Source: Planctomycetota bacterium
GTDB lineage: Bacteria; Planctomycetota; Phycisphaerae; UBA1845; UTPLA1
NCBI GenBank assembly: GCA_015654675.1
Contig: JAATGM010000005.1
Coordinates: 62,001 to 126,000, forward strand
DNA: 64,000 bases
Direction of reading: 5' to 3'
Below are positions 29,238 through 42,223 of this stretch, one piece after another. A program made the position numbers and the translations under genes. The notes under the pieces were generated by a model. The model worked only from the letters and a program-made list of their open reading frames with translations, had not been told where the DNA came from and did not search any database. How positions within the stretch are numbered: position 1 is the stretch's first letter; each line of letters starts with the position of its first letter.

Positions 29238-30269
29238 TTGCTTCGTGATGCCCGTCGATGGCTGACCGCTCACGCCGCGTCGGCCGCCCTCCGCGCCGCT
29301 CCGCTCGCTCCCGCCTGGTCCATCCGCGCGGCCCAGAAGTCCCTCGCGGCCTTGGGGCCGATCGCGCCCGTTTTGGCCCGAACCGTTGCCGCCAATATGA
29401 AGGCCGTCGGCCTCTACAGTCCCGAAGCGCACCGCGACTACTTCGTCCGCGTGGCAGAGCACCTTGCCGCCGCCATCCACATCTTCCGCCACGTTCCGCC
29501 CGACGCCGCAGCAACCGGCACAATGGCCGCCCCTCTCGCCTGCATCGTCCACGAGCAAATCCAACTCGACGGCTCCATTGACCTTCTCCGCCATGCCGTC
29601 GCCGCCGGGCGCGGCGCAATCATCGTCGGCTGCCATATCACAAACTTTCTTCTCATCCTCGCCCGGCTAAACGAAGACATCCCCCTCACCGTCTATCTAC
29701 GCCATTCGCACGACCCGCGCCGCAACGTCGCGAAGGAGCGCTGGTGCCGCGCCACCGGCCTGCAATTCATCGCCGAACCGGCAAGCTCCACCGACCCCAC
29801 GCGCCGCGCCGCCGCAATGGCCGAAGCCCTCCAGTCCGGCCGAGTGCTGGTCATTACTCCGGATCTGCCGCAAAAGGACGCCAACGGAATTCCTGTCAAC
29901 TTCATCGATCGCCGCATCTGGCTCCCGAACGGCCCGGCCGCGCTCTCCCTGCTCACTGGCGCGCCGCTCGTCGCCGCCGTCGCCCGCCCAGCCGGCCGCG
30001 CGACCGTGCTCGTCCTCGAAGGCCCGAACAGCGCCGATGTCACCGCCAAATCGCGCGGTTGGCGCCAGGCCGCGATCGCCGAGCGCATGCAATGGTTCGC
30101 CGACCGCTTCGCCCACTATCTCCGCGCCCATCCGTCGCTCTGGTTCCTCTGGGGCGATAACCGCTGGACCCGCGTTTTCAGTGGAGACCCGCGCTTTTCC
30201 CAACCCGCAACAGCCGCCCAGGGCTCCGCGCCCGAAACCGCAAACATCAATATCGCCGGGGCCATCTAA
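29238..30269 (+). CDS. LpxL/HtrB-like lysophospholipid acyltransferase family protein
   Basis: A 343-residue protein like the lauroyl/myristoyl acyltransferases that finish lipid A. The block GRGAIIVGCHITNFLL corresponds to the HX4(D/E) active site, but the acidic residue five after H133 is leucine (L138). Later blocks (LVITPDLPQ, FIDRRIWLPNGPAALSLLTGAPLV, HPSLWFLWGDNRWT) fit the family. It may be a variant enzyme acting on another lipid or may be inactive. Translation begins at TTG with GGAG 10 bases upstream. It leads a three-gene operon. Confidence 0.85.
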   Translation: MLRDARRWLTAHAASAALRAAPLAPAWSIRAAQKSLAALGPIAPVLARTVAANMKAVGLYSPEAHRDYFVRVAEHLAAAIHIFRHVPPDAAATGTMAAPLACIVHEQIQLDGSIDLLRHAVAAGRGAIIVGCHITNFLLILARLNEDIPLTVYLRHSHDPRRNVAKERWCRATGLQFIAEPASSTDPTRRAAAMAEALQSGRVLVITPDLPQKDANGIPVNFIDRRIWLPNGPAALSLLTGAPLVAAVARPAGRATVLVLEGPNSADVTAKSRGWRQAAIAERMQWFADRFAHYLRAHPSLWFLWGDNRWTRVFSGDPRFSQPATAAQGSAPETANINIAGAI

Positions 30270-34861: not shown

Positions 34862-36862
34862 TCAATCCCGCCGATCCAGCATCCGCCGCGCCCAGGTCTC
34901 CGCGATCGCCATCCGCCAGGTCAGCATCGCCGCCCGTCCATCGCCGCCATCAAATCGTTTGGTTAGCCGCTCGACGCCCCCCCGCTCAAAACATCCGCGC
35001 TCGCCAAACTTCTTCGAGGCAAACAAGTCCTTCCACCACTCGCGCATCGGCCCGCGCAGCCACGCATTCGTCGGCGCCGCAAATCCGATCTTGTCGGTGC
35101 GCAGCCGAATCGCATCCGGCACGCGCCCTGCGACCGATTCGCGCAAGATGTACTTTGTCCACCCGCCCAGCAATTTCCGATCCGCCGGCAGCGCCATCGC
35201 AGGCATGACGAGCCGATCATCCAGAAACGGCACCCGCGCCTCGATCGAAAACGCCATCGAATTACGGTCCTCGAAGTGCAGCAAACTCGGCAGACTCGTC
35301 GATAGCAGCATCTCCCAGCAAAACCGCTCGAACCCGCCCCGCGCCAAAGCCGGCACTTTGCGCTCCCCGCGAGGTATTCGCTGTTGATACGGCAACACCG
35401 TCATCTCATCCGCAGCCAGCAGCTCTCCCGCGAGCCAGTCGCACTGCCGTTCGTCGCGCCACCGTCGCAACCCGTTCCGCGCTACGCGCGGCAGCAGTTG
35501 CCCGGCCACGTGGCCGGCAAGCCCTGCAAATGAAAAATGCTCCTTCAGCGGCCCCGCCCAGAACTCACGCGCCGCCCGGCCCCAGTGCAGTCGCAAAATC
35601 GAATCGGCGATGTAAGGCGGAAAATAACCCGGATATCCGCAAAACAGTTCATCCGCGCCCTGCCCGTCCAGCAACACGGAGATGCCGTTCTCGCGCGCCA
35701 GCCGCATCACCTCCCATTGCATCAGGATCGATGGCGAACTGAATGGCTCATCCTGATGCCACATGATCCGCTCCATTTCGCCCACCAGCCGCGATGGATC
35801 AGGCGTCACGCGATGATCGTGCAATCCCGGATACGCCGCGTGAACGGCATCGACGTATCGCGACTCGTCCAGCCCATCCCCCGGCAGCACCGCGCTGAAC
35901 GTGTGCTGCGACCATTCACGCGGACACGTGTCTGGGGCCAGGTGCCGGATCGAAGCCACGATCGTGCTGCTGTCCAACCCACCCGATAGACACGACCCCA
36001 CCGGCACATCGCTTCGAAGGTGAGCCCGCACGCTTTCATCGATCCGCCCCAACCAATCGCTCGTCGTTCCCGAACTGCTTCCGCCAACCGAGTCCGGTGG
36101 AAAAAACGCCGACATTTTCCCCAGCTTCGCGTTCAGAGACGCCGGCCGCAGATCGATCTCCAGCCAAGTCCCCGGTTGCAAAGACCACACGCCCTCGAAC
36201 AGCGTCTCATTCGTATGATCGAGCAATCCGGAGACAAGAAAGTCCCGCAGCCGCGCCTCATTCACATCCCGCGATACGCCCGGCAAGAGCAGCAGCGACT
36301 TGATCTCCGAAGCAAACGCATGCCCGCCCTCAAACGCCGCGAGATAGAGCGGCTTAATGCCAAGACGATCGCGCGAGAGAATCATCCGTCCCGCCACCCA
36401 ATCCACGATCGCAATCGCCCACATCCCGTTGAATCGCCAGAAACAATCCGGTCCCCAGGCCCGATACGCCGCCAGCGCCACTTCCGTATCGCTCGATCCC
36501 GCAAACTGCATCCCCCGCCCGCATAACTCCTCGCGCAGCGCCGCGTAGTTGTAGATCTCCCCATTGAAAGCGATCCACACATGCCCATCCGCCGCCGCCA
36601 TCGGCTGATGGCCGCGCTCCGAAAGATCGATGATCGCCAGCCGCCGCGCCCCGATCCCCACGGCAGCCCGCGCCCCACCCCAATCCACCGCCTCGTCCGG
36701 CCGCCCCAACCGCCGCGCCACCGCCGGAGTGCCGCCCGCCCCAAACACAACCGCCCCGCCGTCATCCGGCCCACGATGATGGAGTAGCTGCGTCATTCGC
36801 GTCAGCAGCGAAGCCGCTTCGCCGTTGACCGCGTCAAACATCACGCCGGCTATTCCGCACAT
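34862..36862 (-). CDS. asnB: Glutamine-hydrolysing asparagine synthase (AsnB family)
   Basis: A 666-residue enzyme: an N-terminal class II glutaminase domain beginning MCGIAGV (Cys2 nucleophile), with HHRGPDDGG and FNGEIYNYAALREEL. The C-terminal ATP-binding synthetase domain has SGGLDSST, the P-loop-like motif, and LLDGQGADELF. AsnB-like proteins make asparagine from aspartate, but those in glycan clusters often amidate sugar acids instead. Here it lies 5 bases downstream of a GT4 gene, which favours a role in polysaccharide synthesis; that is an inference. Confidence 0.93.
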   Translation of the reverse strand: MCGIAGVMFDAVNGEAASLLTRMTQLLHHRGPDDGGAVVFGAGGTPAVARRLGRPDEAVDWGGARAAVGIGARRLAIIDLSERGHQPMAAADGHVWIAFNGEIYNYAALREELCGRGMQFAGSSDTEVALAAYRAWGPDCFWRFNGMWAIAIVDWVAGRMILSRDRLGIKPLYLAAFEGGHAFASEIKSLLLLPGVSRDVNEARLRDFLVSGLLDHTNETLFEGVWSLQPGTWLEIDLRPASLNAKLGKMSAFFPPDSVGGSSSGTTSDWLGRIDESVRAHLRSDVPVGSCLSGGLDSSTIVASIRHLAPDTCPREWSQHTFSAVLPGDGLDESRYVDAVHAAYPGLHDHRVTPDPSRLVGEMERIMWHQDEPFSSPSILMQWEVMRLARENGISVLLDGQGADELFCGYPGYFPPYIADSILRLHWGRAAREFWAGPLKEHFSFAGLAGHVAGQLLPRVARNGLRRWRDERQCDWLAGELLAADEMTVLPYQQRIPRGERKVPALARGGFERFCWEMLLSTSLPSLLHFEDRNSMAFSIEARVPFLDDRLVMPAMALPADRKLLGGWTKYILRESVAGRVPDAIRLRTDKIGFAAPTNAWLRGPMREWWKDLFASKKFGERGCFERGGVERLTKRFDGGDGRAAMLTWRMAIAETWARRMLDRRD

Positions 36863-36867
36863 CGACG

Positions 36868-38043
36868 TTACGCCTCATCAACGCGCGGCTGCGCAGCCAT
36901 CACGCGCTCATAAATCGCCACATATTGTCTCGCCACAACTGAAGGCCCGAAACGCGCCCAACATCGTTCCGCAAGAGCCCGCGGCTCATACCGGCCAGTC
37001 TCCCCTGCCAGCCGCCGCATCGCGTCGGAGAGCCCTCCAACATCGCCAACGTCGACCAGCAAGCCATCCCCAGCGCCGACGATCGACTCCGGCCCGCCGC
37101 ATCGCGTTGCGATCACTGGCCTCCCGCAAGCCAGCGCCTCGATCAACGTCACGCCAAACGTCTCGGCATGACTCGCCAAGACAAACACGTCCGACTCTAT
37201 CAGTGTGTTTCGCACCGCCCGATGCCCGGCCAGCTCTCCCGGCAGCCGCACCCGATCCGCCACACCCAGCTCAGCCGCCATCGCCCCCAACTTCCCGCGG
37301 ATGGGTCCGTCGCCCGCTACCGTTAGCGTCGCGTCCGGCAGCCCGCGCGCGATTCGCGCAAACGCCTCAATCACATCCTCCAATCCCTTGCCGGGGCGCA
37401 TCGCCGCAATCGTCAAGAACCGGACACCAGCCGCCCGGCGTGCCGGCTCCGGCGGCTCCAGGAAAATGCGATCAAGAGTATTGGGCACGATGTCCACATC
37501 GCGTCGCAGCCCCGCATCGCGCATATTCGCCGCCAGCGCCGGGCTCACCGCCGTGATCGCCCCCGCAGCCTCCCACGCCCGCCGCACCTGCCACCGCTGC
37601 CATGCCGTCTCTACCATCATAGAAAACGGCCCAGCATGCTCGGTCAATACGATTGGCACTCCCCACACGCTGGCGAGTTTGTACGCCGCGTACCCGGCCG
37701 GCAGCACAACATGCGCATGCACAAGATCGGGCGGCCCCTTCTCAGCCACATACTCGCAGAAGAGCTTGCGCACGGCCGACGAGAACGCGATCGACCCATG
37801 CCGCTCGCGGGGCCACCATCGGAAGCCGCGCCAACGCCAGATTTTGAGGGCTTCATCATCTTCTTCGACCATCTCGCCCGATCCACTGCCCGGACGCCAC
37901 TCTCTTAGCGACCGAAGTTCGGGAAACAACACCGTTACTTCGTGACCAGCTTCGGCCACGGCTTTGGCGGCCGAGCGCACGAAGCTCCCCGCATAGGGAA
38001 CTTCCGTCGTCGGATACCAACTCGGGATCACCACAATCCGCAT
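36868..38043 (-). CDS. Glycosyltransferase family 4
   Basis: A 391-residue GT-B glycosyltransferase. It begins MRIVVIPSWYPT, has the acceptor-domain segment AGYAAYKLASVWG, and the GT4 donor site ASHAETFGVTLIEALACGRPVIAT, with the E-x7-E motif. It transfers a sugar from a nucleotide sugar onto a growing glycan or lipid. The ATG at 38043 gives the normal family start. It heads an operon with asnB and the small gene, and is divergent from the next glycosyltransferase gene. Confidence 0.92.
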   Translation of the reverse strand: MRIVVIPSWYPTTEVPYAGSFVRSAAKAVAEAGHEVTVLFPELRSLREWRPGSGSGEMVEEDDEALKIWRWRGFRWWPRERHGSIAFSSAVRKLFCEYVAEKGPPDLVHAHVVLPAGYAAYKLASVWGVPIVLTEHAGPFSMMVETAWQRWQVRRAWEAAGAITAVSPALAANMRDAGLRRDVDIVPNTLDRIFLEPPEPARRAAGVRFLTIAAMRPGKGLEDVIEAFARIARGLPDATLTVAGDGPIRGKLGAMAAELGVADRVRLPGELAGHRAVRNTLIESDVFVLASHAETFGVTLIEALACGRPVIATRCGGPESIVGAGDGLLVDVGDVGGLSDAMRRLAGETGRYEPRALAERCWARFGPSVVARQYVAIYERVMAAQPRVDEA

Positions 38044-38091
38044 CGACCCATCTTGCGAGAATTTGCCGGCGCCCGCCACCACCCCGCCAGG

Positions 38092-39399
38092 ATGACGCCG
38101 CGTCCGCTTCCCGATCTAATCGCTGCTGTCATGGCTTCTCGGCGCGTTTTGATCGTCACCTACTGGTATCCGCCGACGCCCGGCGCAGGCGCCGAGCGCG
38201 CCGCCGGCTTTTCACGGCACTTGCCGGAGCACGGATGGGACCCGATCGTGCTCACGGCTCAGACGCATGGAGCGTCATGGTCGGCCCGGATCTTCGGATT
38301 TGGCGAGAGCGAATCGGCGGATGAAGTGCAGACTGTCTATCGTGTGCCCGACCTGGTCGGGGCGGGCGACATACAAGGCCCATACACGGGCCCACCCGTG
38401 CGGAAATCTGAACATTGGCTTCGACGCCTTGTGTTTCCTGACCGCTTCGCGATCTGGGCAGGTCGCGCCCAGCGAGAGGCACGCTACAAACTCGAAGATG
38501 CGCTTCCGGACATCGTCTGGACGACTTTTCCGCCGGCCAGCGCCGCCATGGCCGCGGGAATCCTGGCTGATCGCTTTTCGCGGCCGCTCGTAATCGACTT
38601 CCGCGATCCCTGGTTCGGAGCTGGCGGATACGCTCCACAATCACAGCGCCAGCGTGAACGTCACGAGGAGCTCGAGCGGCGGCTGATCAGGCAGGCCGCT
38701 GCCATCACTGTAATTTCGGAGGCAATGCGGGATGACCTTTGTCGACGACTCGATGTCGAACCGTCCCGCGCCCACGTAATTACAAATGGGTTTGATGCTG
38801 CCCGATGCATTCAGGTCGAACCTGTGCAGACGCAGCGCCCGCCTGAACTCGTGCACGTCGGCAGCGTGTCACAACGCAATCGACCGGATCTATTTCTGCA
38901 GGCACTGGCCGCCGCTCGACGGCTGGGACCGCTGCCGTGGCGAGTGCGCTTCGTGGGAAATATTTCAGCCGGCTATATCGCTTCCCTTGGTCTCGCCGAC
39001 TCTGTTTCTATAACCGGAATGGTTCCGTGGAATGACGCCTGGCGCGAGACCTGCCAATCGACGGCCCTGCTTCTTCTGGCGGGAGACTATGTTGGAGAGT
39101 GGGGCCACAACACAAAGGTTTTCGAATATCTTCGTTCGAGCCGCCCCATTCTCTGTCTCGAGGAACGTCCAGGAAGCAATGACCGGCGCTTGCTGGAGTC
39201 GCTGGCCGGCGACCGGTCGCGTTTTGGCTTGCTGACAAATCCTGCGTCTATCCTTGAAGGGATTAATGCCGTCATGGGGATAGGCAAAGAATCGCCGATC
39301 GGAACTCTTGACGCCTCCGAAGGTCTAGATCGCTACGATCGCGGCCGGCTTACGGGCCAACTCGCCGAAATTCTCGATGACATCGTCGCTCATCGTTGA
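38092..39399 (+). CDS. Glycosyltransferase (GT4-like)
   Basis: About 435 residues with GT4 architecture: VLIVTYWYPPTPGAGAERAAG at the start, HLPEHGWDPIVLT, a central DFRDPWF and a donor domain with KVFEYLRSSRPILCLE. Its C-terminal motif is less typical than that of its neighbours, so donor and acceptor are unknown. The start is uncertain (ATG at 38092 or 38131). It is divergent from the GT4-asnB operon and 29 bases ahead of the NeuA-NeuB fusion, probably in one transcript. Confidence 0.85.
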   Translation: MTPRPLPDLIAAVMASRRVLIVTYWYPPTPGAGAERAAGFSRHLPEHGWDPIVLTAQTHGASWSARIFGFGESESADEVQTVYRVPDLVGAGDIQGPYTGPPVRKSEHWLRRLVFPDRFAIWAGRAQREARYKLEDALPDIVWTTFPPASAAMAAGILADRFSRPLVIDFRDPWFGAGGYAPQSQRQRERHEELERRLIRQAAAITVISEAMRDDLCRRLDVEPSRAHVITNGFDAARCIQVEPVQTQRPPELVHVGSVSQRNRPDLFLQALAAARRLGPLPWRVRFVGNISAGYIASLGLADSVSITGMVPWNDAWRETCQSTALLLLAGDYVGEWGHNTKVFEYLRSSRPILCLEERPGSNDRRLLESLAGDRSRFGLLTNPASILEGINAVMGIGKESPIGTLDASEGLDRYDRGRLTGQLAEILDDIVAHR

Positions 39400-39428: not shown

Positions 39429-41252
39429 ATGATGGACGGAACGCTCGCAGTCATTATCGCACGCGCCGGCAGCAAGGGGCTGCCCAACAAGTGCGTGGCG
39501 CCGCTCAATGGCCGTGCGGTCATCGAATACACCTTCGACGCCGCGCTGGCCGCGCGCTTGTCCGATGCCGTCTGTCTGAGCACGGACTCCGCCGAAGCAA
39601 AAAAGCTCGCGCGCCAGCGCGACATCTTCGTGGTGGATCGTCCGCCCGAACTCGCAGCGGATAGCGCGACGGTTGACGCCGCCGTTCGTCACGCGGTAAG
39701 TGTATATGAGGCCGCCCACCGGCATTTCCGCGCCGAGCGAATTGTGATCCTTTACGGAAACGTTCCCATCCGGCCCGACGATGCGATTGACCGCACTGTG
39801 AAGATGCTCGCTGACACCCGGTGCGATTCCGTCCGAACCGTGGCCCCGGTTACCAAGCAACACCCCGACTGGATTCACTCGCTCGACGGCGACAAGCTCT
39901 GCAAGTTTCGCGAAAACAGCATCTATCGCCGACAGGACCTTCAGCCACTCTACTTTCATGATGGCGCGGTCGTCGCGGTCACGCGCGCCGCGCTCTTTAC
40001 GGAGCCGCGCCATGCGCAGGACTTTCACGCTTTCTTCGGTACTGATCGCCGGGGCATTGTGGTTGCCGCCGGCGACACCGTCGATATTGACGACTACGCC
40101 GATCTTCGGCTCGCTCAGGCAATGCTCGTCTCGAGAACTGTACAAACCGTGCGTTTCGGCAAATCAGCAATCGGAGTGGGCCATCCCACGTACGTCATCG
40201 CCGAGGCCGGAGTAAACCATGACGGTAAGCTCGCGCAGGCGTTGAAGCTGATTGACGCCGCCAAGAGCGCGGGCGCCAATGCCGTCAAGTTTCAAGCATT
40301 TGCCGCTGAAAAACTCGTCACGCGTGCGGCAGCCGCCTGCGATTACCAGAAGCAGCACGACCACCACAGCCACTCGCAGCGCGCGATGCTTGAACGACTC
40401 GAACTCTCGGCGGCGCAGTTCGCGGCATTGCACCGACACGCCCAGGATGTCAGCATCGATTTCCTCGCCACGCCCTTCGGCATCGACGAACTGCACATGC
40501 TTACTGATTTGGGCGTGCCCGCCATCAAACTCGCATCGCCCGATCTTGTGAATGTTCTGTTGATAGAAGCCGCCGCCGCGACCGGGCTGCCGCTCATCGT
40601 TTCAACCGGCGCCGCGCTCGATGACGAAATAGACGAGACGGTCTTTCATTTCCAACGTCTGGGTGCGTTCGATCGTCTTACGCTGCTCCACTGTGTCAGC
40701 AGCTATCCCACGCCGCTCGGCGAGGCGAACCTCGGTCGCATTCGCATGCTCGCGAGCCGTCATCGTGTTCCGGTAGGGTTTTCCGACCACACACGGGAAT
40801 CAACCACCGGAGCACTGGCCGTAGCAGCCGGCGCATTGGTGCTCGAAAAACATTTGACGCTCGATCGCGCCGCGGACGGGCCAGATCACTTTTTCTCGCT
40901 CGATCCCGCGTCCATGTCGGCCTACGTCGCCGCCGTTCGTGCCGCCGAATCGGTTATGGGCGACGGCTCCGTCCGGCTGTCCGATACTCAACTCGAGACG
41001 CGTACCTTGGCTCGATCGCACGTTGTCGCTGCCGCGCGAATCGCGCCAGGGCGGCTTCTCACGCCCGAAAACATCACCATCAAGCGTACTGGCCTCACGG
41101 ATGGACTGATCGAACCGCGGAATATCCCGAAACTGCTTCGCCGACGCGCGGCGGTTGAAATTGCCCCCGATACTCCGATTACGCTCGCCCTCTTGAGCCC
41201 GGAAACCCATCCCTCTGAAGCCGCCAATCCAATTGCTTCTGCTAATAACTAA
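39429..41252 (+). CDS. Fusion of a CMP-nonulosonate cytidylyltransferase and a NeuB-type synthase
   Basis: One 607-residue polypeptide with two enzymes that normally are separate. Residues about 5-235 are a NeuA-like cytidylyltransferase (IIARAGSKGLPNK, TDSAEAKKLA, VILYGNVPIRP, YFHDGAVVAVTR). Residues about 248-515 are a NeuB-like nonulosonate synthase (YVIAEAGVNHDGK, NAVKFQAF, TPFGIDELHML, GFSDHT), followed by the SAF antifreeze-like domain (about 525-590; RSHVVAAARIAPG, LTDGLIEP). The pair would make and CMP-activate a nine-carbon acidic sugar (sialic, legionaminic or pseudaminic acid). The first motif's PARGGSK reads IARAGSK. No frameshift is needed. Confidence 0.9.
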   Translation: MMDGTLAVIIARAGSKGLPNKCVAPLNGRAVIEYTFDAALAARLSDAVCLSTDSAEAKKLARQRDIFVVDRPPELAADSATVDAAVRHAVSVYEAAHRHFRAERIVILYGNVPIRPDDAIDRTVKMLADTRCDSVRTVAPVTKQHPDWIHSLDGDKLCKFRENSIYRRQDLQPLYFHDGAVVAVTRAALFTEPRHAQDFHAFFGTDRRGIVVAAGDTVDIDDYADLRLAQAMLVSRTVQTVRFGKSAIGVGHPTYVIAEAGVNHDGKLAQALKLIDAAKSAGANAVKFQAFAAEKLVTRAAAACDYQKQHDHHSHSQRAMLERLELSAAQFAALHRHAQDVSIDFLATPFGIDELHMLTDLGVPAIKLASPDLVNVLLIEAAAATGLPLIVSTGAALDDEIDETVFHFQRLGAFDRLTLLHCVSSYPTPLGEANLGRIRMLASRHRVPVGFSDHTRESTTGALAVAAGALVLEKHLTLDRAADGPDHFFSLDPASMSAYVAAVRAAESVMGDGSVRLSDTQLETRTLARSHVVAAARIAPGRLLTPENITIKRTGLTDGLIEPRNIPKLLRRRAAVEIAPDTPITLALLSPETHPSEAANPIASANN

Positions 41253-41338
41253 GAGGCGCTACTTCCCGCGCCGATAGTTCCATCGAGGTTCCTTGACGCG
41301 AACGACTCGCGCCGAGGATTGTGCCGAGGGATGACTTC

Positions 41339-42223
41339 ATGCAAGCGACCGTAAAGCCCGGACTCAACGACGCTGCCACCATCGTCAACAGCGCCATCAC
41401 CAGCGTCGGTGAAATCGCTACGCTTCCCGAAATCACGGTGCGGATCATCAAAATCGTCGAAGACCCGAAGTCGACCGCGCGCGACCTCCACGAAGTCATC
41501 CGCAACGACCCGGCGCTTGCCTCAAAAATTCTGAAAGTAGTGAACTCCGCCTTCTACGGTCTTCCCGGCCAGATTAACAACGTCGACCGCGCCATTGTGC
41601 TTCTCGGCCTTTCCGCCGTGAAGAACATTGCTATTGCCGCCTCGATGACCCGTCTCTTCCAGGGCGGCGTCACGATCGACGGCTTCAATGGCATGGAACT
41701 CTGGCGACACTCTGCCGCTGTCGGCGCCGTGTGCCGTTCTATCGCGAAGATTCAGGGCGCCCAGTGCATGGAAGAAGTCTTCCTCGCCGGACTCATGCAC
41801 GACCTCGGCCTCCTCATCATGCGACAAGCCCTCCCGCGCAAGCTCGCCGAAGTCATCGCCAAGCACCGCGCCGCCCCAAAGGCCTTCACTCAGATCGAAG
41901 AAGAAATCATCGGTGCCGACCACCAGGCGTTCGGTCAGGCCCTCGCCACCAAGTGGCGCTTCCCGCGCGGCCTATGCGCTGTCATCGGCTACCACCACAA
42001 GCCCCAGCTTCTGGCTCCCGAGTTCCGCAGCATGGTCGAGATCGTTCACGTCGCCGACATCCTCGCATGCAAAACCGATATTGGCTTCACCCGCACACAC
42101 GGCCACGCCGAGTTGACGCCCGAGCTGCTCCAGGCCGTGGGCCTCAAGCAGACCGACGCCGACGTCATCCTCGCCGAGCTGCCCGAAAACGTCCGCGCTA
42201 CCGAGGCCCTCTTCCAAAACTAA
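41339..42223 (+). CDS. HDOD domain signalling protein
   Basis: A 294-residue protein filling one HDOD domain, an HD-related output module that lacks a full metal-binding set. Blocks present are LPEITVRIIKIVEDPKST, VIRNDPALASKILKVVNSAFYG, IVLLGLSAVKNIA, and the VFLAGLMHDLGLLI helix, where the HD motif is visible. Such proteins act in cell-cycle, motility or stress signalling. The ATG at 41339 is preceded by GAGG. It lies 87 bases after the fusion gene and may be independent. Confidence 0.9.
   Translation: MQATVKPGLNDAATIVNSAITSVGEIATLPEITVRIIKIVEDPKSTARDLHEVIRNDPALASKILKVVNSAFYGLPGQINNVDRAIVLLGLSAVKNIAIAASMTRLFQGGVTIDGFNGMELWRHSAAVGAVCRSIAKIQGAQCMEEVFLAGLMHDLGLLIMRQALPRKLAEVIAKHRAAPKAFTQIEEEIIGADHQAFGQALATKWRFPRGLCAVIGYHHKPQLLAPEFRSMVEIVHVADILACKTDIGFTRTHGHAELTPELLQAVGLKQTDADVILAELPENVRATEALFQN

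Follow-up and report, generated by a model that had tools for sequence, protein, structure and literature searches.

A single planctomycete gene joins, in one uninterrupted reading frame, a cytidylyltransferase of the CMP-nonulosonate-synthetase type to a synthase of the NeuB type. Enzymes that make sialic-acid-like sugars and enzymes that activate them are usually described as distinct proteins. The gene is a real fusion of these two known enzyme kinds, conserved and recurrent, but it is not a new kind of system. Its product is probably a bifunctional enzyme predicted to make a nonulosonic acid and then activate it with CMP, the two closing steps of the route, a Neu5Ac-type product being the simplest case. 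Three curated domains, conserved catalytic residues, fold matches for both halves, synteny and the presence of one NeuC in each of the fused genomes checked point to this reading; counting against it are the family-wide replacement of the Neu5Ac pocket, scores below the NCBIfam equivalog cut-offs and the failure to find PF07388.

The window, meaning the whole stretch of 64,000 nucleotides that was analysed, corresponds to positions 62001-126000 of contig C11 in a 4.93-Mb genome that carries the fusion gene in one copy. In the open reading frames of the window the gene is free of internal stops and frameshifts, and is laid out as follows:

39429..41252, forward strand: fused cytidylyltransferase-NeuB-SAF gene, 607 residues, with a second in-frame ATG at 39432
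39429..40136, forward strand: N-terminal CMP-nonulosonate-synthetase-type domain, residues 1-236, of a subfamily with LYGNVPIR and HDGA motifs
40137..41195, forward strand: NeuB synthase (barrel and SAF), residues ~237-589, from Pfam and fold match

Three Pfam domains lie along the protein above their cut-offs: CTP_transf_3 at residues 7-144 (63.5 bits against 22.6), within a whole cytidylyltransferase domain that extends over residues ~1-236, the NeuB barrel at residues 274-513 (248.4 against 22.1) and SAF at residues 532-588 (26.9 against 21). The linker between the two halves is just ~5-10 residues long. Together with the 607-residue frame, these domains bear out an earlier note on this DNA, which had described a cytidylyltransferase joined without frameshift to a nonulosonate synthase with a SAF domain. 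Both halves fall below the NCBIfam equivalog cut-offs, so neither earns a specific enzyme name: the NeuB half reaches 320.8 bits against the 399.65 of the N-acetylneuraminate synthase model TIGR03569 (NeuB_NnaB), and the N-terminal half 78.4 against the 205.7 of PseF, its best NCBIfam model.

The search for further copies that the earlier note had proposed returned the same fused frame, at E <= 1e-110, in 24 of the 114 genomes of the same order of Phycisphaerae (the source genome and 23 others, together from 17 genera, one of the frames being broken by a contig end), and full-length single-frame matches of 50-60% identity are present in 11 of the 60 nearest genomes. A named collection, in which some records are seemingly identical to contigs of the order-level genomes (equal protein scores), holds 11 loci, all from Phycisphaerae or Planctomycetota; three are fused, and eight have separate neuA and neuB genes, with overlaps of 4-17 bp or a gap of 1 bp. 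That neuA and neuB touch or overlap in some relatives could suggest that an assembly or frameshift error had united two genes here, an outcome that the earlier note had named as fatal to its claim, but with the frame intact in 23 further genomes of the order and in three contigs of the named collection such an artefact is hardly credible, and for the family as a whole both chance and mis-assembly are ruled out.

On a tree of the NeuB domain (68 rows) the fused state takes 13 changes, eight of them forced by well-supported branches; judged from this synthase-domain tree, switching between fused and separate genes, by fusion or by splitting, is repeated and at least eight switches are needed. 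Other Planctomycetota (genomes G120, G069, G170 and G157; loci L081, L083, L084 and L088) have a second type of fusion, in which the NeuA joined to NeuB is an ordinary one (QPTSP- or QATSP-type motif). It sits apart from the subfamily of the window on the NeuA tree, a quick one with long branches, and the two kinds are separable by motifs alone. Two further candidates were rejected: an in-frame Sinorhizobium fusion, seen as a single tblastn piece, is actually two genes, and a phage fusion in a Moritella record is two annotated genes. No paper on a NeuA-NeuB fusion was found in the open-licence literature, which is weak evidence of novelty. A nonulosonate synthase is likewise joined to a pathway partner in Leptospira interrogans (PMC3438082), where the partner is a C-terminal phosphatase-like domain rather than an N-terminal cytidylyltransferase.

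The earlier note had also remarked that the activating enzyme comes first although it acts second. The order is indeed so, but there is nothing special about it, since neuA-neuB-neuC is the gene order both of unfused relatives and of the Sinorhizobium meliloti capsule cluster, and it is hence uninformative as a sign of channelling. The S. meliloti cluster differs in having separate genes, an ordinary NeuA pocket and a polysialyltransferase next to it.

In the synthase half (N. meningitidis numbering) residues E25, K53, Q55, K129, S132, S154, Y186, S213, H215, E234, H236, D247 and R314 are invariant in all 25 aligned fusions of the window's type. With these catalytic residues in place and with both NeuB and SAF above their Pfam cut-offs, this half is a synthase of the NeuB type. 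Barrel, SAF domain and catalytic residues are shared with NeuB of N. meningitidis (1xuu) and Leptospira borgpetersenii (6ncs, 36% identity), from which the fusion differs in having a cytidylyltransferase in front and in scoring below the equivalog cut-off. Position 134 is D in 25 of 25 fusions, as in 6ncs, whereas it is E in the N. meningitidis enzyme; a literature search on the role of E134 gave nothing useful.

An AlphaFold2 model of the fusion (20 rows; mean pLDDT 88.5, pTM 0.66), in which the placement of the halves relative to each other is not fixed, matches 6ncs (Z 38.7) and 1xuu (Z 38.0) over the NeuB half and 6ifd (Z 25.6) and 1eyr (Z 24.7) over the activator half. NeuB is a domain-swapped dimer. 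Since the active sites of known NeuA enzymes are also assembled across a dimer (PMC6580227), one homodimer could serve both halves.

The activator half keeps the catalytic core of its family and departs from NeuA in its sugar pocket. Residues R12, K21, R71, R165, Q166, D209 and D211, whose roles are taken from published work (PMC2901514; PMC6580227), are kept in the 38 members, fused or separate, as is F192, and R12, K21, R71, R165, D209 and D211 together with the Pfam match place the half in the CMP-nonulosonate synthetase family (CTP_transf_3). The fold (Z ~25) and the CTP, Mg and carboxylate residues are those of NeuA from N. meningitidis (1eyr) and Vibrio cholerae (6ifd). By comparison with these enzymes, the Neu5Ac contacts have given way to other residues in all 38 members (S82 is replaced by V or I, Q104 by Y, T106 by N, N175 by D, and Y179 by V, A, I or C), the window protein having V, Y, N, D and V at these five positions and thus lacking the contact residues of a strict NeuA; usually C also stands in for N22, a ribose contact (34 of 38 members, one being a fragment without a start). 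In the N. meningitidis enzyme Q104, N175 and Y179 are tied to Neu5Ac binding and catalysis, and changes at Q104 lower kcat/Km by 200- to 47,000-fold (PMC2901514), while docking links O4 and O8 to S82 and Q108 of the V. cholerae enzyme (PMC6580227). Where the N. meningitidis residue numbering was carried over around K142 the alignment has a gap, and nothing here is based on that position. The earlier label of NeuA therefore holds as far as a cytidylyltransferase of the CMP-nonulosonate-synthetase type is meant, but strict NeuA is unsupported. Position 104 carries Y, as it does in the PseF-type CMP-pseudaminic acid synthetase of Aeromonas caviae (9ftb), in which S takes the place of the R165 retained in the fusion.

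NeuC, NeuB and an activator suffice for a minimal route from UDP-GlcNAc through ManNAc and Neu5Ac to CMP-Neu5Ac. The sugar genes of the genome were sought family by family. As the earlier note had said, NeuC and the dehydratases are missing from the window; the only NeuC above the cut-off in the genome (373 bits against 235.9 for the hydrolysing UDP-GlcNAc 2-epimerase model, which may take in LegG too) lies on another contig:

C53 29873-30967 (14825-16006, reverse strand, of locus L061): NeuC, alone among unrelated genes

Exactly one NeuC (E <= 1e-20) is found in each of nine fused genomes checked. In those of the same family it is unlinked to the fusion and 47-58% identical to the NeuC of contig C53; in those of another family it lies directly downstream of the fusion and is 35-36% identical. 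The genome gave no match to PseG, which rules out a pseudaminic acid product, and so does not hold the set that marks that pathway (PseF or PseI above cut-off, together with PseG). Nor does it hold LegB and LegC above cut-off, the mark of a legionaminic acid pathway, the cut-offs of these models being strict: no LegB reaches its cut-off (475 bits) in the 11 genomes checked, the nine fused ones giving at most 189 bits, and the PseC/LegC-like transaminase of the genome is under both cut-offs and unlinked. With PseG missing and no LegB at cut-off, the simplest conclusion is a product of Neu5Ac type. No PF07388 polysialyltransferase, the sole sialyltransferase family searched, was found in the genome. 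In two genomes with separate genes, LegB-type dehydratases score close to the cut-off (420-436 bits; G042, locus L124, and G026, locus L125), and a legionaminic acid pathway may coexist there with separate neuA and neuB.

A bifunctional enzyme acting on another sugar, be it legionaminic acid, Kdn or an undescribed C9 acid, would account for the rewired cytidylyltransferase pocket. The loss of every tested Neu5Ac contact throughout the subfamily, on a long stem branch, argues for such a sugar, as do Y104 and the D at synthase position 134; set against these are the absence of PseG, the low LegB scores, the weak and unlinked transaminase and a NeuC above its cut-off (with the proviso about LegG), and we consider another sugar unlikely, though a serious contender. 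It is improbable that the Phycisphaerae subfamily, whether fused or beside NeuB, activates a nonulosonic acid other than Neu5Ac, legionaminic or pseudaminic acid and that the fused enzyme passes this acid directly from site to site. The diverged pocket and the C at position 22 could also be taken to mean that the N-terminal half is inactive as a sugar activator and persists as a structural or regulatory remnant, but none of the 38 members, even where the gene is separate, has lost its P-loop, CTP, Mg or carboxylate residues, which makes this very improbable.

The genes around the fusion are these:

34862..36862, reverse strand: asparagine-synthase-type amidotransferase, also near the fusion in genomes G011 and G005
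36868..38082, reverse strand: glycosyltransferase family 4, likewise next to the fusion in the closest relative, G011
38020..39399, forward strand: glycosyltransferase-4-like protein, on the fusion's own strand and 29 bp ahead of it (longest frame from 37942)
41321..42223, forward strand: HDOD-domain protein, starting 68 bp after the fusion with no NeuC between

The glycosyltransferase-4-like gene just upstream is probably co-transcribed with the fusion. Relatives have the order neuA-neuB-neuC-HDOD, with NeuC (scoring above its curated cut-off) in 18 of 26 loci and HDOD, a conserved neighbour, also in 18 of 26; across the order an HDOD-domain gene is conserved immediately behind neuA-neuB(-neuC) (the window, L023, L024, L026, L029 and others). 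Elsewhere in the window, the stretch 29238-30266 scores 28.2 bits (cut-off 22.3) as a lipid A acyltransferase type, which fits an outer-membrane glycolipid.

According to the reading we favour, a bifunctional enzyme with a Neu5Ac-type product, the C-terminal NeuB barrel with its SAF lid would condense a 2-acetamido hexose with PEP; the simplest candidate for the hexose is ManNAc, supplied from UDP-GlcNAc by the genome's one NeuC on contig C53. The other half would then link the C9 acid to CMP, using CTP and Mg2+, and the CMP-sugar would feed the synthesis of a surface glycan, in which the glycosyltransferase of the gene immediately upstream may take part. The fusion itself would have arisen from adjoining neuA and neuB genes, with lineages subsequently moving between the fused and separate states several times.

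The interest of these findings is chiefly for specialists, and a one-gene maker of CMP-sugars could be a handy biocatalyst. The two activator kinds found in fusions, together with the switching between fused and split genes, provide a natural test of whether coupling both steps pays, and the changed sugar pocket of the activator subfamily suggests that Planctomycetota have a sugar specificity not yet characterised.
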